DNA of 21,364 nucleotides, taken from IMG/VR virus record IMGVR_UViG_3300042402_006703, positions 1-21,364 of that record; one strand, 5' to 3'. This stretch comes from a virus. Both the position numbers and the translations under genes were made by a program. The notes below the pieces were generated by a model. It was given only the letters and a program-made list of their open reading frames with translations. It had not been told where the DNA came from and made no database searches. Shown here in pieces: positions 2,084-15,744 of this stretch; positions within the stretch are counted from its first letter, which is position 1, and every line of letters begins with the position of its first letter.

Positions 2084-2849
2084 CTGCTAATTTTTTATAA
2101 ACATTTCTAATTCCTTGCTCTAATCCTACAAAGGCTATCGGAAGCTCACTATAAGTTCCTATATAGTTTTGTCCTGGAAGAGGATCTACTATGTTAATTG
2201 GAACTTTATTTACTGATATGGTATTTATTTGCTTAGCTATGTTACTTAGCGAAACAGTATCGTCATATATACAATCTACTTCTTTTAATAGGTCTTTACC
2301 TGTTACATAATGTTCTACTATGGAGATTAGATCTGGCATATAAATAAAATCCATCAGCTTGTCTTGATGTATCTTTATTGGATCTCCTTGCAATACATTT
2401 TTAATACTGGTTTTTATAAATCTTGTGTCTAATTCATCTTCATCAAATACTCCGTATATTCTTAAAGTATAGAAGTTATCGTATTTATAGACTAATTTAT
2501 TAATAATACTCTTACTATGTCCATATGGAGTTTCTGTTAAGTATCTTTCAGCTCCTGAGCCTATATTAATTAGTTTACTAAAATGATCTTTTTTTGATAA
2601 TAAATTATAGAACATAACTAAATTCCAAAAAGAAATAGTTTCATCTGGATCTCTAGGAGTAGCTGCTCCTTTTATAGCTGTATGGATAACTACATCAAAA
2701 TATTTATCTTTAAAAAACTTATCCACAGATTTACTATCTGTTAAGTCTAGTTCATCTCTACCAGGAGCTAGTATATGATATTTCTCCCATAAACTTTTTG
2801 TAATCCTTTTTGCTAGATAGCCATTTCCGCCTGTAATTAGTATTTTCAT
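2070..2849 (-). CDS. NAD(P)-dependent nucleotide-sugar epimerase/reductase (extended SDR, 259 aa)
   Basis: An extended short-chain dehydrogenase/reductase expected to act on a nucleotide-linked sugar in the cytoplasm. The N-terminus has the cofactor-binding sequence TGGNGYLAK (residues 6-14), an acidic strand (DELDLTD, 32-38) and VVIHTA (53-58). The catalytic set is Ser98 in NIGSG and Tyr109-Lys113 in PYGHSK. With 259 residues it is shorter than typical 300-320-residue sugar epimerases, mainly in the C-terminal substrate domain. Its first codon overlaps the stop of the transketolase C-part gene (ATGA, 4 bases), and it directly follows the RmlB-like and transketolase genes, so it plausibly reduces or epimerises the keto sugar that those genes make. 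RmlD-like 4-reduction is one option; the sequence alone does not settle the stereochemistry. Confidence 0.8.
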   Translation of the reverse strand: MKILITGGNGYLAKRITKSLWEKYHILAPGRDELDLTDSKSVDKFFKDKYFDVVIHTAIKGAATPRDPDETISFWNLVMFYNLLSKKDHFSKLINIGSGAERYLTETPYGHSKSIINKLVYKYDNFYTLRIYGVFDEDELDTRFIKTSIKNVLQGDPIKIHQDKLMDFIYMPDLISIVEHYVTGKDLLKEVDCIYDDTVSLSNIAKQINTISVNKVPINIVDPLPGQNYIGTYSELPIAFVGLEQGIRNVYKKLADAAN

Positions 2850-3322
2850 CGCTTTAAGTTCATATAAATTGGAGTTCTCTTTTGTAATGTATACTTAAAG
2901 TAGTCTGCTAATTCTTCATCTGTCTCCGGATGATATGTTTTAATGTTATCAAATACTCCCATGATTCGTTTATCATCATGTGACCAATGTGAGAATCCTA
3001 AGTAACCATATTCTTTATCTCTTCCTCCACCAATAATATTTACAGGAATCTTTTCATGATCTAAATAATTTCTAATCATTTCAAAAGGTCTGTAGATTGC
3101 AAAAGGAGTTATAGAGTACACAAACGGAATCTTTCCTTCCATAGCTAATCCAATAGCCATTCCCATCATAACCATTTCAGAAGAACCTACATTATGAAAA
3201 CGATCAGGATACGTATCTCTAATATTATCCCATAATCCATATCCTAGGTCACCTGTTATTAAATGTATGTCCTGGTTGTGCTCCATTGCTTGGTGCAGTA
3301 AACTTGCAAACGTTCTTCTCAT
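2846..3322 (-). CDS. Transketolase-like protein, pyrimidine-binding (C) part (158 aa)
   Basis: The second half of a split thiamine-diphosphate enzyme. The expected catalytic glutamate, which activates the cofactor's aminopyrimidine, is Glu49 in NVGSSEMVMMGMAIG (44-58), matching the transketolase/DXS signature NVGIAEQNMVGIAAG. ITGDLG (22-27), PFVYSITPF (66-74) and GFSHWSHDD (109-117) fall where the domain's other cofactor and substrate loops do. The protein ends after this domain: the third, C-terminal transketolase domain (about 120 residues) is absent. It starts one base after the stop of the partner gene and ends overlapping the SDR gene, so the pair is probably made together and forms a heteromeric enzyme with both domains contributing to each active site. 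The substrate is unknown; two-carbon ketol transfer to or from a sugar is expected of the family. Confidence 0.83.
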   Translation of the reverse strand: MRRTFASLLHQAMEHNQDIHLITGDLGYGLWDNIRDTYPDRFHNVGSSEMVMMGMAIGLAMEGKIPFVYSITPFAIYRPFEMIRNYLDHEKIPVNIIGGGRDKEYGYLGFSHWSHDDKRIMGVFDNIKTYHPETDEELADYFKYTLQKRTPIYMNLKR

Positions 3323-3323
3323 A

Positions 3324-3941
3324 TTACGATTCTAAAACTTGATTATAATTATCTTCATTCATTACATGGTAGTGTGCATTTAATCCTTTTAGGAAAGGAT
3401 ACTGCTCTACTGTAGTGTATCTTAAATTAATTGTAGGTAGGAATGCTTTTAATCTAGCTGAGATATAATCTTGATCAACTTCTTTATATGCACATAATCC
3501 ATTTATGTTAACAAATACTTCTATGTTTTCAATCTTTTCTTCTACAATGGTCTTTAAAGATTCCCAAATACTTCCTTCTGCTGCTTCACCATCACTTATC
3601 AATACCCAAACCTTTCTTTTTGGATTAGCTACTGCCCTACCTAGAGCAATTGTTAATCCTAATCCTAGACTTCCTGTTGAGCAGTATATTTTATTCTCTT
3701 CATCTCTGTGAGGATGTCCTCCATGTTTGATAAATAACCCCTCAGCATTTATTCCGTGATACTTTTCTAAACACACATACATTGCTAAAGATGCATGCCC
3801 TGAGGATAGAATAAAAATATCGTCTTTATCCATTTTAGAGAAAATTTCATCAACTATACTTACACTCGATAAATAACTTCCTAAATGTCCTAGCTTATGT
3901 TTGTAAGCTATTTCAACTATTCTCTTTTTTAATGCTACCAT
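3324..3941 (-). CDS. Transketolase-like protein, diphosphate-binding (N) part (205 aa)
   Basis: The first half of a split transketolase-like enzyme. The thiamine-diphosphate/metal motif is at SDGEAAEGSIWE (116-127) ending with Asn145/Asn147 (VNINGL), equivalent to the canonical GDG-x(25-30)-N; here the first Gly is Ser. Other family landmarks are GHLGSYLSS (18-26), SSGHAS (46-51) and TGSLGLGL (89-96). Stand-alone N-parts are usually 270-280 residues, so at 205 this is a compact version. The start overlaps the stop of the RmlB-like gene by 7 bases and the stop is one base before the C-part gene. The placement between an RmlB-like dehydratase and an SDR, in a glycan operon, suggests nucleotide-sugar chemistry rather than the pentose phosphate pathway (inference). 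Confidence 0.85.
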   Translation of the reverse strand: MVALKKRIVEIAYKHKLGHLGSYLSSVSIVDEIFSKMDKDDIFILSSGHASLAMYVCLEKYHGINAEGLFIKHGGHPHRDEENKIYCSTGSLGLGLTIALGRAVANPKRKVWVLISDGEAAEGSIWESLKTIVEEKIENIEVFVNINGLCAYKEVDQDYISARLKAFLPTINLRYTTVEQYPFLKGLNAHYHVMNEDNYNQVLES

Positions 3942-4891
3942 ATAAATTTTTCTTTATAATACTCTACAATATACTCCAACTCAGTATTAAACTCAATTTG
4001 AGGCTTCCATCCTAATGCTCTTATCTTATCGTCATTCAAAGCATATCGAACATCTTGTCCTTGTCTATCATATGAGAAGTCTACAAAGTCTTCTAATATG
4101 TAAACTTGATCCTTATTATACAATGTAAGAACTTTTTTGATGGTTTCCAAATTACTTTGCTCAAATCCTCCACAGATATTGAATATTTCATTCTGTACTC
4201 CTGATTCAATTATCTTTATAACTGCATTGGCTGTATCTTGAGCATGAAGCCAAGTTCTGATTGGAGTACCTCCATTGTGTAGAGGAATCTTCTTACCAAG
4301 TTTTAAATACTTTAAAGCTTTTGGAATTAGCTTTTCAACGTATTGACCTATTCCATAATTATTTGTTGGACGAACTATTACATAAGGAAGGTTATAAGTT
4401 CTACCCCATGCTGTTACAAGCATATCTGCTGCAGCTTTTGTAGCTGAATATGGATTGGAAGGTTTAAGTAAATCTGTTTCGATATGTTCTCCCTCTTCTA
4501 TATCTCCGTATACTTCATCTGTACTGAAGTGGAGTAATATAGGTTTTGCTGAATGCTCTCCTCTATGATTCTTAATTAGCTCTAGTAAATTGTGAACTCC
4601 ATTTATATTTGAAGATACAAATTCATCTGAGTTGGCAATTGAATTACCTACATGAGTTTCAGCTGCTGTATTGATTATGTAATCACAGTCATATAAGAAT
4701 TTTAAATCATTTATATCACAGTTAACAAATGAGAAGTTACTATATTCTTTAAACTCTTTTAGTAGAGCTTTATTGGCTGCATATGTTACTTTATCAACTC
4801 CCTTAACATACCATCCCTTACTAAGGCATACTCTTGTTACGTAGGATCCTATAAACCCTAAACAACCTGTTACGTAAACTACTTTTGTCAT
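3935..4891 (-). CDS. RmlB-like nucleotide-sugar 4,6-dehydratase (318 aa)
   Basis: An NAD-dependent extended SDR of the dTDP-glucose 4,6-dehydratase type, which makes a 4-keto-6-deoxy nucleotide sugar. The NAD motif is GCLGFIG (9-15). The RmlB active-site triplet Thr-Asp-Glu is at 124-126 in STDEVYG, and the catalytic Tyr148 and Lys152 are in PYSATK. RPTNNYG (174-180) and the GGTPIRTW loop also fit. Length agrees with the family but is slightly short. The TDE triplet separates it from UDP-galactose epimerases and from RfbG (CDP-glucose dehydratase), so dTDP-glucose is the first guess for substrate, though no RmlA, RmlC or RmlD with clear identity is nearby. It begins one base after the upstream glycosyltransferase stop and overlaps the transketolase N-part by 7 bases, linking its product to that enzyme. 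Confidence 0.87.
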   Translation of the reverse strand: MTKVVYVTGCLGFIGSYVTRVCLSKGWYVKGVDKVTYAANKALLKEFKEYSNFSFVNCDINDLKFLYDCDYIINTAAETHVGNSIANSDEFVSSNINGVHNLLELIKNHRGEHSAKPILLHFSTDEVYGDIEEGEHIETDLLKPSNPYSATKAAADMLVTAWGRTYNLPYVIVRPTNNYGIGQYVEKLIPKALKYLKLGKKIPLHNGGTPIRTWLHAQDTANAVIKIIESGVQNEIFNICGGFEQSNLETIKKVLTLYNKDQVYILEDFVDFSYDRQGQDVRYALNDDKIRALGWKPQIEFNTELEYIVEYYKEKFIW

Positions 4892-5874: not shown

Positions 5875-7680
5875 TTAAAATGTATTTAACAACTCTAAAA
5901 ACCTTTTACATCTCTGTAAATCGTCTCTATGAAAAGGTATCAGGGAAATATAAAGTAGCTTAACTTTATTTTGTAACTCATCTATTGAAAGTGTTGGATG
6001 TGTTCGTAATAGCTTGTTTAAAAAGTGATCCCTTAAGCTTTTCAAGTACTCCTTCTGTATAGGCTCATTATGTAATACATAGTCGTATCCTGTTAAGCTT
6101 TGCAAAACTTTAGCAAAGTCATAGTATATATCTCCCCCAACTGTTAACTTGTTGTCCCACTCTCCTCTCATATCTATGAAACTACACTTAGCTTCACCTG
6201 TAAAGATGTTAGTAAATACAGGATCTCCATGTATACGTCCATACTTATTGTGAAAATGTATATTACATAACTGCTCATACTTAGTAATATCTACTCCTAA
6301 TTTTTTGTACAAAGAGCTAAATTTTGTAAACCTGTCCTTAACCTTTAAGTTATAAGCCCAGTTAATGTCTACCTTAATATCGTCAGAGATAGAGTTGTGG
6401 ATTGTATTTAAGGACTCTACTAGGATATCTATATCCATCTTAGAAAGTCTCTGAGAAAGTAGTAGAGAGGAGTATGTTGGTTTTGTTATCCTGAATAGTT
6501 GTAGGCTTTGTGGCGTAGTACTAATTATTGCTGGAAAGTATGAATGTAGATGTACCGGAAGTGTATTGTAGTAGTACCTCTCTCCTTCAATGCTTCCTTG
6601 CTTCTCAACAGTGTCTCCATTTACAATAATTTTATTATGGGCTCTAGCTGTATGCTCTTCAGACAAATAGAGTCCTGTTGCCTTCTCTAGATTCTTATAA
6701 GCTGGTATAGCTTTGTCATCGATGTAGATGTCTGCATAAGGTTTCATTAGTACTAACTCATCATAACACACATTTAATTCTTTTAAAACTTTTTCTATGT
6801 GAGGACGTTTTGCCTCTATTTCTTGAATGTTTGAATTTGTTGATAGCATTCCTCTAGCTGTATGTAATATAATTTTACATCCACTCTTATATGCTTGATT
6901 ACAAAATAGTACATTCTTCTCTATTGCTTTAGGGTTAGTGTATAAATCGTATACAAGTGTCCCATCAATATCAAAGCATAAGGTTAATTGTTTATCCTTA
7001 TTTTCATTCCTAGCTTGGCTCTGTAATTGATAAGGTGTTCCGTAGCATGTGAACTCTCCTGAAATATCTACAGATGTAACTTGGTGGTTTTGGTCAATCA
7101 GTACTTGTATTGCTTTACTAAGGTATAGTTCGTTTGTTTGCTCTAATACGCTTTCACAAGCAAGTTTCATTATTTCCTTATTGCTAAAAATGTATACTCC
7201 TGCATTTGCAATATCACTTATAGCAACCTTTTCCTGTATTTCTAATATACTATTACTTTTATCTACTGATAGGTAGCTATACAGTCCTGTGCGATCTTTA
7301 TCTATGAAACTTAAAATACCATTACGTTCTACTTGTGCTAATTTACGTAAAGCTTGTTGTGATAATACTGTGTCGCAATCCATACAAACTATCTGCTCTT
7401 GTTCTCCTAACTGTGAATACGAAAGCAGAACTGTCTCTGCTGCTCCTCTAGTAGGTGTTGCGCTTTCTACAATTGTAACCCTTTCATCGAATAGAGCTCT
7501 AACCAGTTCAGTATTTTCCCTACTGCATATGATTATTATTTGAGTGAAATGCTCGTACAGGTTATTAACTACCTTCGTAATAAGGATCTCTGTATTTACT
7601 CTTATAAAAGGCTTACCCTCAGAGTATCCATTTTTTGCAAAACGCTCTCCTACACCGAGCATTGGAATAACTGCTATCAT
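5875..7680 (-). CDS. Trifunctional fusion: nucleotidyltransferase - HAD phosphatase - APH/choline-kinase-like kinase (601 aa)
   Basis: Three enzyme modules are joined. Residues 1-225 form a sugar-nucleotidyltransferase-like domain: LGVGERFAKNG (8-18), EGKPFI (21-26) and the metal site MDCD (100-103). Residues 232-345 form a HAD domain: DIDGT (237-241, catalytic Asp237), HTAR (273-276), Lys313 and DIYIDD (317-322). Residues 360-601 form a kinase-like domain of the aminoglycoside phosphotransferase/choline kinase fold: HGDPVFTN (484-491, with Asp486 and Asn491) and metal-binding Asp503 in FIDMRGE. Such a set would phosphorylate a small alcohol or sugar, remove or edit a phosphate, and couple the product to CTP or another NTP; the LicC/LicA (CDP-choline) pair is one analogy, capsule alditol or heptose activation another. 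It is the only nucleotidyltransferase in the window. It sits 16 bases downstream of a GT-like gene. Substrates are not determinable from sequence. Confidence 0.83.
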   Translation of the reverse strand: MIAVIPMLGVGERFAKNGYSEGKPFIRVNTEILITKVVNNLYEHFTQIIIICSRENTELVRALFDERVTIVESATPTRGAAETVLLSYSQLGEQEQIVCMDCDTVLSQQALRKLAQVERNGILSFIDKDRTGLYSYLSVDKSNSILEIQEKVAISDIANAGVYIFSNKEIMKLACESVLEQTNELYLSKAIQVLIDQNHQVTSVDISGEFTCYGTPYQLQSQARNENKDKQLTLCFDIDGTLVYDLYTNPKAIEKNVLFCNQAYKSGCKIILHTARGMLSTNSNIQEIEAKRPHIEKVLKELNVCYDELVLMKPYADIYIDDKAIPAYKNLEKATGLYLSEEHTARAHNKIIVNGDTVEKQGSIEGERYYYNTLPVHLHSYFPAIISTTPQSLQLFRITKPTYSSLLLSQRLSKMDIDILVESLNTIHNSISDDIKVDINWAYNLKVKDRFTKFSSLYKKLGVDITKYEQLCNIHFHNKYGRIHGDPVFTNIFTGEAKCSFIDMRGEWDNKLTVGGDIYYDFAKVLQSLTGYDYVLHNEPIQKEYLKSLRDHFLNKLLRTHPTLSIDELQNKVKLLYISLIPFHRDDLQRCKRFLELLNTF

Positions 7681-7696
7681 CTTTTATGTGTTTATG

Positions 7697-8491
7697 TTAA
7701 TCTAATCCACCCCAACTCTGCAGTAGGTTGTAATACTCCTCAAAGGACTGTCCTCTGTAGATATCGCAGGACCTCTCTTTAGTTGATTCAACACTTAGTC
7801 CCGAGTTGATTGCTTGTAGGTATAGTAGCCTGCAGGTATCTCTAGGGCAGAGTCCATTACTAAAGGGTGAATCCAGTAGTTCTTTATATTTCAAATATGA
7901 GTTGCATACTGTATCCATTTCACTACTTCTTCCGTAAAAGAATATATCATAGATACGATTAGGATAATAAGCTCCACCTTCTAAATTTATATTATATACA
8001 GTCTTTTGCTGTACTTCTTCCAAAGCAAGTGGTCTTACGAATAAGCTATCAGGTCTAGCTCGAAGTACAACATCATATTTAATCCCGTGTTCTTTTTCGT
8101 AACAAATTTTTAAATTATTAGCTTTATATATTTTATACAGTTGTGTGTAACTATTAACTGTTCTTGGTGAATATTTATCTGAGAATCCTAAATTATATTC
8201 GTTCTTTGACATCTCATCTATCCATCTGTTGTAGTTTTCTATTTCAACTGATTTGATTCCAGGGTATGTATGTTTTATATAAAGTTCTAGGTCTTCTTGC
8301 TGTTCTTTTACTTCTCTTGGTGAGATATATTCGTGATTCATTGACCTACCTAAGTGGTTCCAAGTTGAGATGAATATATCAGGCTTCCAAGTTTCTAAGT
8401 ACTTTTGAAAGCCATCTACAACAAGCTCGTCAGTAAAGTACCTCATTTCCCCACTCAGACAGATTGCTACTTTTAATTTACTCTTTTGCAT
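7697..8491 (-). CDS. Glycosyltransferase-like protein of unknown family (264 aa)
   Basis: A soluble protein that starts with a beta strand and glycine turn (KVAICLSGEMRYF, 7-19), continues with PDIFISTWN (37-45), and has KYDVVLRARPDSLF (138-151) where a GT-A enzyme would place its nucleotide-sugar acidic motif. The pattern of an N-terminal SGxxR turn, an ISTW strand and an RxRPD motif is found in uncharacterised capsule/viral glycosyltransferase-like proteins; I infer the role from that and from the surrounding operon. FFYGRSSEMD (184-193) is the other notable run. The gene follows the three-domain enzyme after 13 bases that form a perfect palindrome with the stop codon's last base. An alternative is a non-catalytic acceptor-binding partner of the neighbouring transferases. 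Confidence 0.65.
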   Translation of the reverse strand: MQKSKLKVAICLSGEMRYFTDELVVDGFQKYLETWKPDIFISTWNHLGRSMNHEYISPREVKEQQEDLELYIKHTYPGIKSVEIENYNRWIDEMSKNEYNLGFSDKYSPRTVNSYTQLYKIYKANNLKICYEKEHGIKYDVVLRARPDSLFVRPLALEEVQQKTVYNINLEGGAYYPNRIYDIFFYGRSSEMDTVCNSYLKYKELLDSPFSNGLCPRDTCRLLYLQAINSGLSVESTKERSCDIYRGQSFEEYYNLLQSWGGLD

Positions 8492-11521: not shown

Positions 11522-12499
11522 TTAATTTAATATAGTACTTATTTTTTGATTAAACAACTGTTGGTTGTAGTATTTTTTGTAATTCTCTTTAGCTGTTCTG
11601 CTACACTCTTCGTAAAAGTCTTTATCATCTCTTAATCTTTCAGCAAGCATGGCTGCTTTCTCTACATCTTCCACATCAACTGCTAGGTCTGGATGGCATA
11701 GTCTTTGTGTATCTACTTTCTCATTTCCTATACAAGGTATGCCAAAGTAAGCACAATTTAAACTAAATGTTCCAGCTGCTATGGTTGGCATAAGGTGTAC
11801 AGCATATTTAAAAGAGCTTAATTGCTTCATCCAATCTGTCCACATCACTCTTGGTAGATGATTTATTAACTGATCCTCTCCCTCTCTCATTGCATGAGAA
11901 GTTTGTCCCCATATTGGAACTTCAAATCTCTGTGCTACTGTAAAGCTTTCCATTCCTCCGTACCATCTAGCAAAATTCCCTCCTACAATAACTTTTTCTT
12001 CTCTAATAGGGTGAATATTTTCTACTATAGAATCTATCATTAGAGTAGGTATAACGTGCACAGGTACGTTAGGAAACATTCCTTTGTAGTATTTTACATC
12101 ATGTTCGTTGTGTGCAAAGATACCATCTGAGGATATTAACATATTATAGAATTGGATCTGATCAACCATTTCATAGTCGTTCCACCACCAATGAGGACCT
12201 TCCTGCACTATGTATACTTTTTTATTGTATTGTTTTAACTCTTCTATTACATTTGCAGATAGTAGTATTGATACAGGATTTACTTGATCTACTAACTTAC
12301 TTCCACATGCATCTAAATATACTCTCCCCTTAGGGAAAATAATAAAAACATGGTCATAATCTCTTATCGCTCCGTAGTTGTATATACGCTTATGGTCAGC
12401 ATTCAATGCATGCATCCAAGCAAACTCAGTTCGCATATTAGAGTGGTTAGAGGGAATCTTTCCCTCAAAACCCATCTCTGTTAAAAATACTATACCCAT
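11522..12499 (-). CDS. GT-B-like glycosyltransferase (325 aa)
   Basis: A soluble protein with the two-Rossmann look of GT-B transferases. The N-terminal half has MGIVFLTEMG (1-10), HVFIIFPKG (50-58) and KKVYIVQEGPHW (93-104). The second half opens with VIVGGNFARWYGG (170-182), the usual start of the donor-binding domain, and has a Gly-rich segment MPTIAAGTFSLNCAYFGIPCIG (237-258) where GT4-type enzymes have the E-x7-E region; a classical E-x7-E is not evident, so it may be a divergent family. The start overlaps the end of the aminotransferase-like gene by 10 bases, and the next gene (methyltransferase) begins 4 bases after its stop. Donor and acceptor are unknown. An ARW-type motif and a WWW run (104-106) are distinctive and useful for finding relatives. 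Confidence 0.75.
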   Translation of the reverse strand: MGIVFLTEMGFEGKIPSNHSNMRTEFAWMHALNADHKRIYNYGAIRDYDHVFIIFPKGRVYLDACGSKLVDQVNPVSILLSANVIEELKQYNKKVYIVQEGPHWWWNDYEMVDQIQFYNMLISSDGIFAHNEHDVKYYKGMFPNVPVHVIPTLMIDSIVENIHPIREEKVIVGGNFARWYGGMESFTVAQRFEVPIWGQTSHAMREGEDQLINHLPRVMWTDWMKQLSSFKYAVHLMPTIAAGTFSLNCAYFGIPCIGNEKVDTQRLCHPDLAVDVEDVEKAAMLAERLRDDKDFYEECSRTAKENYKKYYNQQLFNQKISTILN

Positions 12500-13815
12500 A
12501 TTGTATCTGGACTGAAGAATTTATCTACAATTGTTCCGATGTATTCAATTTGCTCTAATGTAATAATTGGAGAACATCCTAGGAAGAAAGTATCTGTTGT
12601 TACTTTTCTTGATACTGGGTATTTCTCTATTACTTCTTTTGAATCAATTAAATGAGAGTATCCTGGCTGTAGCATGATGTTACCAGCAAAATAAGGTCTT
12701 GTTTGAATCTTATGCTTTTCTAAGAATTGACAGAATTCAGCTCTTGTAAAGTTCATTCCATCTCTAACTGTTAATGCAACAGCAAACCAATCTGGATCTG
12801 ATTTATCTGTAGCTTTTGGTAAGATAAATTTATCTTCATACTTCTTAAAGATATCAACAATTGCTTTATGATTTCTTCTTCTTAGTACTCCAATCTCTTC
12901 TAGCTTACCTAACTGAACATTACCCATTGCTGCTTGTAACTCAGTTGGCTTTAAGTTGTATCCAATCTCTTCGTAAGTATATTTGTGATCAAAGATCTCA
13001 TTAGGAAGACTTGGTAACCAATTACTAAATCTAATACCACATGAACCACATTCCAAAGCATTTGCTTTACCTTGACAGAAACATCCTCTTCCCCAATCTC
13101 TAAAGCTTCTTAGTATCTTTTCTGTATGAGCATCTTGACATGCTACAAATCCTCCTTCACCCATTGTAATATGATGTGCCGGATAGAATGAGCATGAAGC
13201 CATTTTACCGAATGATCCTAGAGGTTTTCCATCATAAGTTGTTCCTAATGCATCACAACAGTCCTCTAATAGGATTAAATTATATTTATTTACAATTTCC
13301 ATCAATCGATCCATGTTAGGTGGATTACCTAATACGTGAGCAAATGTAATTATCTTTGCATCTGGATGATCAATACATGCCTGCTCTACTTGATCTAAAT
13401 CTAGATTAAGAGATTCTAATTCAATGTCAACAAAGATTGGTGCAAAGCCTACTTGAATGGCAGGACTAAGTGTTGCAGGAAATCCTGCTATTGGAGTAAT
13501 AACTTTAGTACCTTTTGGTAAGTTCATTCCTCTTTTAGATGTTAAAGCTAACATCATTAATAAATTAGCACTTGAACCGCTATTAACAATAACTCCCGTC
13601 TTCTGTCCTAATTTTTTAGGAAAACGTCTTTCAAACATTGCTCCTTCTTTTCCTAGAACTAACCAACCTTCAAGCATAGTTCTAACAACTGCTTGTGCTT
13701 CTTGACCATCAAAGTATGGTCCAGCATATTGGACTAAGTCCTCTCCTGCTACCCATTTCTTCTCACTGTCTTTTTTTGTAATGTACTCCTGTACTAAGTT
13801 TAAAATACTATCCAT
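12490..13815 (-). CDS. rfbH: RfbH/E1-type PLP-dependent nucleotide-sugar 3-dehydratase (441 aa)
   Basis: A DegT/DnrJ/EryC1-fold enzyme of the sugar 3-dehydratase branch, which uses pyridoxamine phosphate to remove the C3 hydroxyl from a 4-keto-6-deoxy nucleotide sugar. In SFYPAHHITMGEGG (209-222) His214 replaces the Schiff-base lysine found in aminotransferases, the hallmark of RfbH/E1 and ColD. Four cysteines, C245, C247, C256 and C259, follow RDWGRG and match the [2Fe-2S]-binding set of E1, which ColD lacks. Other matches are NSGSSANLL (78-86), LLEDCCDALG (182-191) and KYTYEEIGYNLKPTELQAA (278-296). Length is normal for RfbH. It begins after a 53-base gap with a possible promoter; upstream neighbours are GDP-mannose 4,6-dehydratase and GDP-fucose synthase-like genes. 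No E3 reductase or CDP-glucose genes are visible. The gene symbol reflects the family, not a proven CDP substrate. Confidence 0.85.
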   Translation of the reverse strand: MDSILNLVQEYITKKDSEKKWVAGEDLVQYAGPYFDGQEAQAVVRTMLEGWLVLGKEGAMFERRFPKKLGQKTGVIVNSGSSANLLMMLALTSKRGMNLPKGTKVITPIAGFPATLSPAIQVGFAPIFVDIELESLNLDLDQVEQACIDHPDAKIITFAHVLGNPPNMDRLMEIVNKYNLILLEDCCDALGTTYDGKPLGSFGKMASCSFYPAHHITMGEGGFVACQDAHTEKILRSFRDWGRGCFCQGKANALECGSCGIRFSNWLPSLPNEIFDHKYTYEEIGYNLKPTELQAAMGNVQLGKLEEIGVLRRRNHKAIVDIFKKYEDKFILPKATDKSDPDWFAVALTVRDGMNFTRAEFCQFLEKHKIQTRPYFAGNIMLQPGYSHLIDSKEVIEKYPVSRKVTTDTFFLGCSPIITLEQIEYIGTIVDKFFSPDTIWV

Positions 13816-13839
13816 GTAACTGTTTTTATTTATTCTTTT

Positions 13840-13868
13840 AATATATGAAATTTCTAAATACTTTACAA
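13840..13868 (-). promoter_or_regulatory. Candidate internal sigma-70-like promoter
   Basis: In the 53-base gap upstream of the 3-dehydratase gene, the minus strand reads TTGTAA, then 17 bases, then TATATT, ending about 24 bases before the ATG. It is the longest gap inside the glycan operon. Such matches are easy to find by chance in AT-rich DNA, and Bacteroidota sigma factors prefer a different -7 element, so this is tentative. Confidence 0.3.
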
Positions 13869-14849
13869 CTATTTTTTATAGTAATTTTCCCAGTACTCAA
13901 TCATTTCATCTAACATGCTCTCAAAAGTATATTCATGCTTCCAGCCTGTTGCTTTAACTAACTTAGAACAATCTCCTTTTAGGTCATGTAACTCTTCCGG
14001 GCGTAGGAATTTCTTATCCTGCTTAACATATTGCTTCCAATCTAATCCTAACTTACCAAATACATATTCACATAACTCCTGTACTGAATGCGATACTCCT
14101 GTTGAGCAGACAAAATCATCTGGTTTGTCTTGCTGAAGTATTAACCACATTGCATAAACATAATCCTTAGCATGTCCCCAATCTCTTGTAGCGTCTAAGT
14201 TCCCTAGCTTTAATTCATTTGATAAACCTAACTTAATCTTAACTGCTTCCTTACATACTTTATTTGTAACAAAGTTTGTACCTCTGCGAGGTGATTCATG
14301 ATTGAATAGAATACCGTTTGATACAAACATACCGTAAGAGTTACGGTAATTTCTACTGATACTATATGCAAATACCTTAGCACATCCATAAGGTGATACT
14401 GGATTGAGTGGTGTAGTTTCTCTTTGAAATCTATCCTCATCAATACTATTTCCAAACATTTCTGAAGATGATGCTTGATATATTTTTGTTTTAGGTGATA
14501 CAAGTCTTACTGCTTCAAGTACATTTAATGTACCTATTCCTGTTGCATTAGCTGTGTATAGAGGTTGATCAAAAGATATCCTAACATGTGATTGAGCAGC
14601 TAAGTTATACAACTCATCAGGTTGTACTTTTGAAATAACTCTAACTAGTGATGCTAGGTCTGTTAGATCGGCATACTCTAGTTTAATCTTATCATAAACT
14701 GCATCTAACCTTGCTGTTTGATTCTCAGCTACAGAATTTCTCTTTACTGTTCCCCAAACCTCATAACCTTTTTCTAGTAGTAGTTCAGCTAAATATGATC
14801 CATCCTGTCCATTTATTCCAGTTATAAGTGCTACTTTATTTTCTTGCAT
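13869..14849 (-). CDS. gmd: GDP-mannose 4,6-dehydratase (326 aa)
   Basis: Converts GDP-D-mannose to GDP-4-keto-6-deoxy-D-mannose, the branch point to fucose, rhamnose, colitose and perosamine. The NADP site is GINGQDGSYL (11-20), with Arg37-Asn38 (KRNS) selecting the 2'-phosphate. The active site is visible as ASSSEMFG (126-133, Ser128/Glu130) and Tyr154-Lys158 in SPYGCAK. The family signature NHESPRRG (183-190) is intact, as is LGNLDATRDWGHA later in the chain. Length is a little below the 345-375 of bacterial Gmd, with the loss at the C-terminus. Its start overlaps the end of the GDP-fucose synthase-like gene by 14 bases. Substrate GDP-mannose must come from the host or from genes outside this window, as no ManB or ManC is present. 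Confidence 0.93.
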   Translation of the reverse strand: MQENKVALITGINGQDGSYLAELLLEKGYEVWGTVKRNSVAENQTARLDAVYDKIKLEYADLTDLASLVRVISKVQPDELYNLAAQSHVRISFDQPLYTANATGIGTLNVLEAVRLVSPKTKIYQASSSEMFGNSIDEDRFQRETTPLNPVSPYGCAKVFAYSISRNYRNSYGMFVSNGILFNHESPRRGTNFVTNKVCKEAVKIKLGLSNELKLGNLDATRDWGHAKDYVYAMWLILQQDKPDDFVCSTGVSHSVQELCEYVFGKLGLDWKQYVKQDKKFLRPEELHDLKGDCSKLVKATGWKHEYTFESMLDEMIEYWENYYKK

Positions 14850-15744
14850 TATCGTAATTTTCTATAAACCATTTAACTGTCTCCTTTATTCCTTGCTCAA
14901 TTGGAGTATATTTAAAGTCTGGAAGGTATCTTTTTAATTTATCATTTGAGGAAGGCTTTCTAAATTGACCATCCGGTTTATCTGTTTCAAAGATAATATT
15001 GCCTTTATAGTTAAACTCTTCAGCTATTAATCCTACTAAATCTTTTATGCTTATTTCTTCTGAAGTTGTAAAGATAATTGGCTCTTCTTCGTCGTAATTC
15101 TCAACAGCCCATTTAGCTAACTCTGCTACATCTTTAGAGTAGATAAATTCTCTTAAAGGCTTACCTGTACCCCATACTCTGAAGTCTGTTTTATTTTGAA
15201 TTGCTAAATACATTTTATGTAAAAGCATCGGCACTACATGTCCATGTTCTAATGAGAAGTTATCATTTGGACCGTAGATGTTAGTTGGAATTACGGAAGT
15301 ATATTTCAATCCATACTGCTCTCTATAAGCTCTAATTTGAATATCTGCTAGACGTTTAGCATAAGCATATGGATAGTTTGAATTGTGAGGGAATCCATTA
15401 TGTACTTGATCTTCCGTTAAGGGATAGTTTACTTTGTCTGGAAATACACAAGTAGATAAAAAAGATACTAGATTTGTAACTCCAGTCAATCTAGCTGATT
15501 CAATTACATTTGTATTGATCATCACATTATCGTACAAATATTCTCCTTTGTACTTCATATTACCTCCAAGACCTCCTACCTTTCCTGCACAATGTATAAC
15601 GTGAGTTGGCTTATAACATTCAAAAGCTTTTAAAGTATCGTCTGGATTAGTTAGGTTATATTCTCTCCCTAATTTGATATCAGCATCAATAGCTGAGCCT
15701 ACTAGTCCTTTTCCTCCTGTTACTAGTACTTTAGAGTGTGTCAT
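14836..15744 (-). CDS. fcl: GDP-L-fucose synthase-like epimerase/reductase (302 aa)
   Basis: An NADPH-dependent SDR that, in the Fcl family, epimerises C3/C5 and reduces C4 of GDP-4-keto-6-deoxy-mannose to GDP-L-fucose. Seen: cofactor motif GGKGLVG (10-16), Ser97-Thr-Cys99 with catalytic-type Cys99 in LSTCVFP, Tyr126-Lys130 in PYAYAK, and the second acid/base histidine His169 in GHVVP, equivalent to Cys109 and His179 of E. coli Fcl. IPTNIYGPNDNF (152-163) and VWGTGKPLREFIY are also diagnostic. It overlaps the upstream GT2 gene and the downstream gmd gene by 14 bases each. ColC (GDP-colitose synthase) is homologous; because a 3-dehydratase gene follows gmd, a ColC-like role is the main alternative to fucose synthesis. 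Length is about 20 residues below E. coli Fcl. Confidence 0.88.
   Translation of the reverse strand: MTHSKVLVTGGKGLVGSAIDADIKLGREYNLTNPDDTLKAFECYKPTHVIHCAGKVGGLGGNMKYKGEYLYDNVMINTNVIESARLTGVTNLVSFLSTCVFPDKVNYPLTEDQVHNGFPHNSNYPYAYAKRLADIQIRAYREQYGLKYTSVIPTNIYGPNDNFSLEHGHVVPMLLHKMYLAIQNKTDFRVWGTGKPLREFIYSKDVAELAKWAVENYDEEEPIIFTTSEEISIKDLVGLIAEEFNYKGNIIFETDKPDGQFRKPSSNDKLKRYLPDFKYTPIEQGIKETVKWFIENYDNARK

Follow-up and report, generated by a model that had tools for sequence, protein, structure and literature searches.

A three-domain viral fusion protein predicted to activate a sugar phosphate without a phosphomutase

A sugar phosphate can be converted into a nucleotide sugar without a phosphomutase, and the demonstrated precedent is the MupP-AmgK-MurU route, which takes N-acetylmuramic acid (MurNAc) 6-phosphate to a nucleoside diphosphate (NDP)-sugar (PMC5371407). 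A set of partly homologous enzymes occurs in phage RB69, whose DNA bears arabinosyl-hydroxymethylcytosine; its ORF053c/052c is one protein of 561 aa that had been split by a sequencing error (PMC6024577). The 2018 authors left open how RB69 obtains UDP-arabinose, raised "a kinase and esterase" in general terms, and did not name ORF051c in the main text (PMC6024577). In phage Thanatos, TH1_060 is 53% identical to RB69 ORF53_52c and essential for propagation (PMC12838424). The portions of these publications available to us give no established activity for ORF53_52c or TH1_060, the closest studied relatives of the protein described here (PMC6024577, PMC12838424). We analysed a virus record of 21,364 bases (IMG/VR record IMGVR_UViG_3300042402_006703, the whole of which is called the window below), in which the minus strand carries the larger open reading frames (ORFs), many of them glycan genes. 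One of them encodes a nucleotidyltransferase (NTase), a HAD phosphatase and an APH-fold kinase in a single chain. With moderate confidence, we consider this fusion to be a one-polypeptide, mutase-free nucleotide-sugar synthetase, with the predicted reactions, reaction order, C1 site and glycan use set out below.

The fusion gene begins with ATG and continues for 601 codons without an internal stop (Table 1). An NTase-HAD-kinase fusion had been proposed in the initial annotation, which gave no strand. It was borne out on the minus strand, and the motifs named there (DCD at residues 101-103, DIDGT at 237-241, HGD at 484-486, N491, and D503) were all at those positions. The N-terminus scored 38.5 bits against Pfam NTP_transf_3 (cut-off 27) and 35.7 bits against NTP_transferase PF00483 (gathering cut-off 21.2), and its EK motif aligned with that of RmlA. 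In the fold search the closest structure was 4evw (Z 27.4), followed by UGPase, GlmU, and RmlA, and a profile search matched 4evw and GlmU with its relatives. Part of the middle region matched Hydrolase_3 at 21.6 bits, barely above the cut-off of 20.9. At E 0.1 Pfam gave no other family for this domain, HAD_2 included, and the NCBIfam model EcbF-BcbF (TIGR01689) gave 32 bits, below its cut-off of 162. The C-terminal kinase of the window protein had no Pfam match of its own, and among the kinase domains of its homologues 7 of 17 matched Pfam APH at E 0.1 or better. The AlphaFold model of the kinase domain, with a mean predicted local distance difference test score (pLDDT) of 87.9, had an APH/maltokinase fold, and the matches ranked by Z were maltokinase (18.7), glucosamine kinase (18.2), aminoglycoside kinases (about 17), methylthioribose kinase (16.7), and LicA (16.4). 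AmgK is also an APH-fold kinase. A model of the whole fusion (pLDDT 86, predicted template modelling score 0.56) did not fix the packing of the domains. Since the NTase and kinase folds were closest to sugar-1-phosphate NTases and to sugar kinases, with little separating the kinases from the next folds, both were counted for sugar activation.

A first near relative was obtained from a direct scan; a three-sequence alignment was then used as the query, and 80 viral loci were retained. The near relative (L001, a 162-kb record) encodes a fusion 84% identical to that of the window. The full fusion was present in 20 of the 80 loci (L010 to L029); L010 is the L001 locus again, and a further four are near-duplicates. 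The 17 non-redundant viral fusions, the window included, aligned end to end, and identity to the window protein was 31-84% among the remaining 16. Invariant in all 17 were R13, K23, D101, D103, E150, and K151 of the NTase; D237, D239, T241, T274, K313, D317, D321, and D322 of the HAD domain; and E367, H484-G485-D486, N491, and D503 of the kinase, with K360 nearly so. Within the DIDGT motif the two aspartates and the threonine were invariant and the residues in between varied. That 17 viral fusions keep their catalytic residues is more than would be expected by chance.

The fusion was also found on cellular contigs. Two of the 13 loci returned from the genome collection carried it, one in a metagenome-assembled genome of Neomarinimicrobiota (22 kb, L090) and one in Pelagibacteraceae (9.6 kb, L091), and these short contigs could themselves be viral in origin. 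A third cellular fusion lay on a contig of 1.32 Mb (L122), recovered from a search of 147 genomes of the L091 family. These three proteins were 30-31% identical to that of the window and kept the listed residues, except for D317 (H, H, and N, respectively) and K360, which stood opposite a gap. Among predicted viral structures (BFVD), the best match was Indivirus ILV1 A0A1V0SE67 (635 aa, 30% identity over 653 columns). Judged by this overall match and not by motifs, the complete fusion of three domains appears to be present in a giant virus of eukaryotes as well. In midpoint-rooted trees of single domains from 20 fused and 16 split sets, the fused group was recovered with support of 0.999 (kinase), 0.842 (NTase), and 0.643 (HAD), and the midpoint-rooted concatenated tree also recovered a fused clade, with a printed support of 0.228. 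The fusion probably arose in a single event.

The same three domains recurred in other arrangements. They are consecutive genes in the order kinase, HAD, NTase on a Legionella plasmid, and in cyanophage S-SKS1 and in L032 the order is NTase (fused to DHBP synthase), kinase, HAD. The order was kinase, a gene of a putative transferase family (f2, described below), NTase, and HAD in L036; HAD followed by an NTase-kinase in L037 and L094; and HAD-NTase followed by NTase-kinase in the thaumarchaeote L092. In L006 and L049 the HAD was joined to a kinase-like part according to BLAST alignment, and the kinase profile did not list these proteins; in L006 the HAD-kinase protein is followed by a CTP_transf_like enzyme of a different superfamily. 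When 398 Pseudomonadota genomes were searched with the fusion profile (E 1e-8, at most three candidates scored per genome), 35 matched, one of which (G002) carries the fusion itself. Besides G002, 15 genomes matched in the kinase range; a HAD lay within 5 kb of the match in 12 of these 15, and an NTase within 5 kb in 11, plus one more by a separate search. The recurrence of the domains as neighbours, split or differently fused, in phages, bacteria, and an archaeon indicated that they form one pathway unit. The combination is not confined to this phage, and recurs as a module in phages and bacteria. It is highly improbable that the trio is an unrelated fusion of moonlighting or salvage enzymes acting on different substrates. 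HAD relatives are mostly found without the kinase and NTase, as would suit such a fusion (in 60 viral loci without the fusion, searched at E 1e-5, a HAD was present in 57, a kinase in 4, and an NTase in 5), whereas the return of the same three domains in several different arrangements argues against it.

NTases were seen with further partners. The NTase-DHBP synthase (RibB) proteins, whose NTase is of the fusion's type, lie at 8001-9428 of L003, which is cyanophage S-SKS1, and at 5989-7428 of L032, and suggest a four-carbon or pentulose-derived substrate in these two viruses. In cyanophage Bellamy (L004, 7986-9143, annotated as "phosphatase") an NTase is fused to an RpiB/LacAB-type sugar-phosphate isomerase. 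An NTase is joined to a HAD_2 phosphatase by Pfam in L115 (1489-2877) and L049 (4272-5639), with the same layout in L116 (1495-2868). In L114 (107-2011), of the L091 family (Pelagibacteraceae), the NTase type of the fusion stands directly ahead of a RuBisCO-like protein.

Some of these arrangements also bear on a LicA/LicC-like route, in which choline, ethanolamine, or a polyol would be converted to its CDP form and transferred as a phospho-decoration. The fusion kinase belongs to the APH/choline-kinase fold class, and LicC falls in the same NTase superfamily, which was counted for this route. LicA reached Z 16.4 against 18.7 for the best kinase match and LicC was not among the 50 NTase fold matches listed, so that the fold comparison does not decide whether LicA or LicC is nearest. 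The pairing in L006 fits it as well, the CTP_transf_like superfamily being one that makes CDP-glycerol, and the NTase-DHBP synthase fusions of S-SKS1 and L032 could supply a four-carbon substrate. We nevertheless regard this route as quite unlikely for the fusion. The fusion NTase was closest to sugar-1-phosphate enzymes. Choline_kinase (PF01633) matched 1 of the 17 kinase domains, weakly (0.0047), and did not match the window protein. The route needs no phosphatase, and the context in RB69 is a sugar (PMC6024577). A phosphocholine-like product had first been considered because of the kinase fold; it was lowered by the scarcity of Choline_kinase matches and by the sugar-type NTase. Of the proposal in the initial annotation, activation to a nucleotide diphosphate form was thus retained, probably of a small sugar-like molecule, and the phosphocholine-like leaning was given up, the glycan cluster around the gene also speaking against it.

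In the proposed sugar-activation mechanism, the HAD domain would remove the terminal phosphate from a sugar 5- or 6-phosphate to give the free sugar. This sugar would next receive a phosphate at C1 from the APH-fold kinase, and the NTase at the N-terminus would join the resulting sugar-1-phosphate with a nucleoside triphosphate (NTP) to yield the NDP-sugar. The product would serve glycan decoration through the adjacent DUF7796/WavE-like transferase and/or the 4,6-dehydratase-like enzyme together with RfbH.

The gene row of RB69 was compared with this scheme. It consists of ORF055c (arabinose-5-phosphate isomerase), the short ORF054c, ORF053c, ORF052c, and ORF051c, the last annotated as phosphoheptose isomerase. 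The kinase profile matched ORF052c at E 3.6e-28 and the HAD profile matched ORF051c at E 2.7e-17. ORF053c is a PF00483 NTase and shares only the Pfam superfamily with the fusion NTase. PspYZU05 has isomerase, NTase-kinase, and HAD in the same order as RB69, VR5 has NTase-kinase then HAD, and Enterococcus phage 9183, one protein of which was matched by the NTase profile, has HAD then NTase-kinase. A source of sugar 5-phosphate, a phosphatase, a kinase, and an NTase thus occur together in an arabinose-using phage, and this is the set needed for a mutase-free route. From these sequence matches, the same enzyme trio suggests how the arabinose for RB69 DNA could be made. As a separate observation, four phage genes annotated as phosphoheptose isomerase matched the HAD phosphatase profile (L138 3209-3595, which is RB69 ORF051c; L139 4608-5006; L140 3257-3601; L141 4621-5229), and PHROG 1238, named phosphoheptose isomerase, was also matched by the HAD of the window. 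The wider proposal has two parts, namely that a one-chain, trifunctional, mutase-free synthetase of single origin is common to phages, Pelagibacter-family bacteria, and a giant virus, and that the same logic, with ORF051c as the missing phosphatase, yields UDP-arabinose for the DNA of RB69-type phages. We hold the two together tentatively, at somewhat less than an even chance.

Several results weigh against the synthetase reading. The ranking of kinase folds was nearly flat, and the fold search on the modelled domain did not settle the kinase specificity, which may also be that of a family not listed there. The HAD family alone is not specific, being also used elsewhere without the kinase and NTase. 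The second metal-binding Asp of E. coli RmlA (in WLDTGT) had no counterpart in any of the 17 fusions, which have x-GTP instead; the earlier claim that all modules keep their catalytic residues therefore stands for the motifs conserved in the 17 fusions, and not for this RmlA-type residue. E. coli GlmU likewise differs at that position, and since the stand-alone NTases of Legionella and S-SKS1 also lack the Asp, its absence is a subfamily trait and not decay of the window gene. The NTase profile did not match RB69 ORF053c, VR5, or PspYZU05 even at E 10, and the NTase of these phages is hence of a different subfamily. When TH1_060 was assayed with xylose-1-phosphate and five NTPs no activity could be identified, and UDP-xylose was made by another Thanatos protein, TH1_063 (PMC12838424). 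TH1_060 may act on a sugar other than the xylose-1-phosphate it was given; the negative assay stands nonetheless. Finally, no SIS isomerase was found in the window, and in the 20 fusion-bearing virus records, short fragments and near-duplicates included, PF01380 was over its cut-off in none and PF13580 in one. As these isomerases are nearly absent, the host or other enzymes would have to supply the sugar phosphate.

The isomerase search also bears on the order of the reactions. If the order were that of HddA, GmhB, and HddC, the kinase would act first to give a sugar bisphosphate, the HAD domain would then take off the terminal phosphate, and the NTase would finish. In the heptose route the kinase does act ahead of the phosphatase, and the order of domains along a polypeptide does not set the order of reactions. 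The genes of the GDP-heptose route include a 7-phosphate kinase, an isomerase, and a guanosyltransferase (PMC10918830). The fusion kinase has the APH fold and so is unlike HddA. A GmhA-type isomerase (SIS_2) was not found in the window, and SIS_2 was present in 1 of the 20 fusion virus records, some of which are fragments. HddA is a GHMP kinase. We consider this order unlikely, and keep the order of phosphatase, kinase, and NTase for the proposed synthetase.

The destination of the nucleotide sugar was considered next to the RB69 case. An NDP-sugar for modification of phage DNA, as with RB69 arabinose, would agree with the homologous kinase and HAD standing beside nucleotide-metabolism genes in RB69, VR5, PspYZU05, and Enterococcus phage 9183. 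The window fusion is instead located among glycosyltransferases, dehydratases, and RfbH. L001 is the record of a contractile-tailed phage, with families for tail sheath, major head protein, portal, head protease, and UvsX-like protein among the 75 proteins scanned. PF00303 (thymidylate synthase family) had no match in the 162 kb of L001 and a match in 4 of the 20 fusion records; other routes of DNA modification were not searched. Since L001 has no thymidylate synthase-family gene, a surface or virion glycan is the more likely target here, and the use of the product on DNA is improbable. In marine myophages, variable regions rich in glycosyltransferases have been proposed to change the host surface (PMC7029224).

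Table 1. Positions of the fusion gene, its three domains, and neighbouring genes in the window
Feature	Position	Strand	Evidence or remark
NTase-HAD-kinase fusion gene, 601 aa	5875..7680	minus	ORF, Pfam, alignment
Sugar-phosphate nucleotidyltransferase domain, residues 1-222 (GxGxR, K23, D101/D103, E150-K151)	7015..7680	minus	Pfam, alignment, fold
EcbF/BcbF-like HAD phosphatase domain, residues 231-340 (D237, D239, T241, T274, K313, D321)	6661..6990	minus	Pfam, NCBIfam, alignment, profile
APH-fold small-molecule kinase domain, residues 342-600 (K360, E367, H484-G-D486, N491, D503)	5881..6657	minus	alignment, AlphaFold model
DUF7796/WavE-like putative transferase, 264 aa (family f2)	7697..8491	minus	Pfam; directly upstream of the fusion, 16 bases apart
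dTDP-glucose 4,6-dehydratase-like enzyme, possible NDP-sugar consumer	3935..4891	minus	303.5 bits, cut-off 365.1
RfbH-type sugar 3-dehydrase	12490..13815	minus	451.7 bits, cut-off 423
Two-gene minimal transketolase-like thiamine diphosphate (ThDP) enzyme (158 aa + 205 aa)	2846..3941	minus	putative link to the fusion

The gene next to the fusion belongs to family f2. Of its 17 aligned members, 11 matched DUF7796 and two matched WavE, the latter presumably being the Legionella proteins so annotated; the window protein was under the DUF7796 cut-off. An f2 gene adjoined the fusion directly on the same strand in 10 of the 17 viral loci, with an overlap of 4 bases in six, and in an eleventh locus a single gene separated the two. 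This count is not independent, since the sequences used for the f2 profile came from the same 11 loci, in which the gene was already known from BLAST clustering. Five of the 13 fetched regions L118-L130 contained f2-like matches, among them L122 with the full fusion. In L128 (8522-10933) a bacterial protein of 803 aa joins an NTase to an f2-like domain (profile 505-727; no Pfam match). The f2 putative transferase likely uses the product of the fusion and is the best candidate for doing so.

RfbH and close relatives of the window's 4,6-dehydratase-like gene were present in 5 of the 17 fusion loci, the window included. At the position of the window's ThDP genes, the closely related glycan cluster of L001 (12820-16423) encodes an ALS-like ThDP enzyme together with an acylating aldehyde (acetaldehyde) dehydrogenase and a DmpG-like aldolase, and the exchange is perhaps a swap of carbon-branch donors. 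The RfbH, dehydratase-like, and ThDP genes resemble pathway components for branched-chain sugars of the yersiniose/erwiniose type (PMC12247030). In the window (12490-15744), the RfbH-type dehydrase has a conserved cysteine cluster and stands beside a Gmd-like gene (400.6 bits, cut-off 415), with a GDP-fucose-synthase-like gene nearby (230.9 bits, cut-off 500). Gmd and RfbH usually act on different nucleotide sugars. We also considered the fusion as a dedicated RfbF replacement, supplying CDP-glucose for a branched 3,6-dideoxy sugar. The loci attractive for this idea were the window, L001, L015, L017, and L027, four of which have a transketolase- or ALS-like ThDP enzyme. Because RfbH and the dehydratase occurred in just these 5 of 17 loci, replacement of RfbF cannot be the general role and the candidate was rejected.

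The fusion had also been described as the only nucleotidyltransferase here, and no other protein of the window did in fact score above the PF00483 cut-off. When 15 records were searched, the fusion was the sole match in 10 of the 12 having any; G009 has a second NTase besides the fusion, and in G014 only another NTase was found. In 4 of the 15 records (G014, G561, G562, and G563) the NTase of the fusion itself escaped the search, which makes "only nucleotidyltransferase" a weak statement.

If the synthetase reading is true, viruses carry a self-contained means of activating sugar phosphates, independent of a host phosphomutase, in one gene able to move between glycan clusters. It would also say concretely which enzymes supply UDP-arabinose in RB69-like phages, with ORF051c as the phosphatase and the ORF052c half as the sugar kinase, and the same prediction would extend to the bacterial HAD / NTase-kinase / NTase gene sets.

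Compared with known systems, no well-characterised fusion was found as a best match, and no description of an NTase-HAD-kinase fusion was found among the literature matches listed, which comprised titles and abstract openings with little coverage of subscription journals. The LicA/LicC phosphocholine pathway shares the kinase fold class, whereas the window protein has a sugar-type NTase and an extra phosphatase. The capsule phosphatase EcbF/BcbF (TIGR01689) resembles the window HAD as a domain, far below the model's cut-off, and not as a whole protein. The Pseudomonadota gene sets (L118-L128) have all three domains homologous and neighbouring, with no characterised member found; they differ in being three genes, the kinase being joined to a second NTase of divergent sequence. 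The putative UDP-arabinose module of RB69 (ORF53_52c, ORF051c, and ORF055c) shares the homologous kinase and HAD and a nearby NTP_transferase domain. Its NTase is of the other subfamily and fused directly to the kinase, its HAD is separate, an isomerase is present, and the product is on DNA, whereas the window has one three-domain protein, no SIS isomerase, and a glycan cluster. MupP-AmgK-MurU of Pseudomonas shares the HAD phosphatase and the GlmU-like NTase and, as predicted for the window protein, a sugar C1 kinase and the course from 6-phosphate to NDP-sugar, and differs in its separate genes, HAD_2-type phosphatase, and MurNAc substrate (PMC5371407). The window protein would be such a mutase-free sugar-activation trio in one chain.

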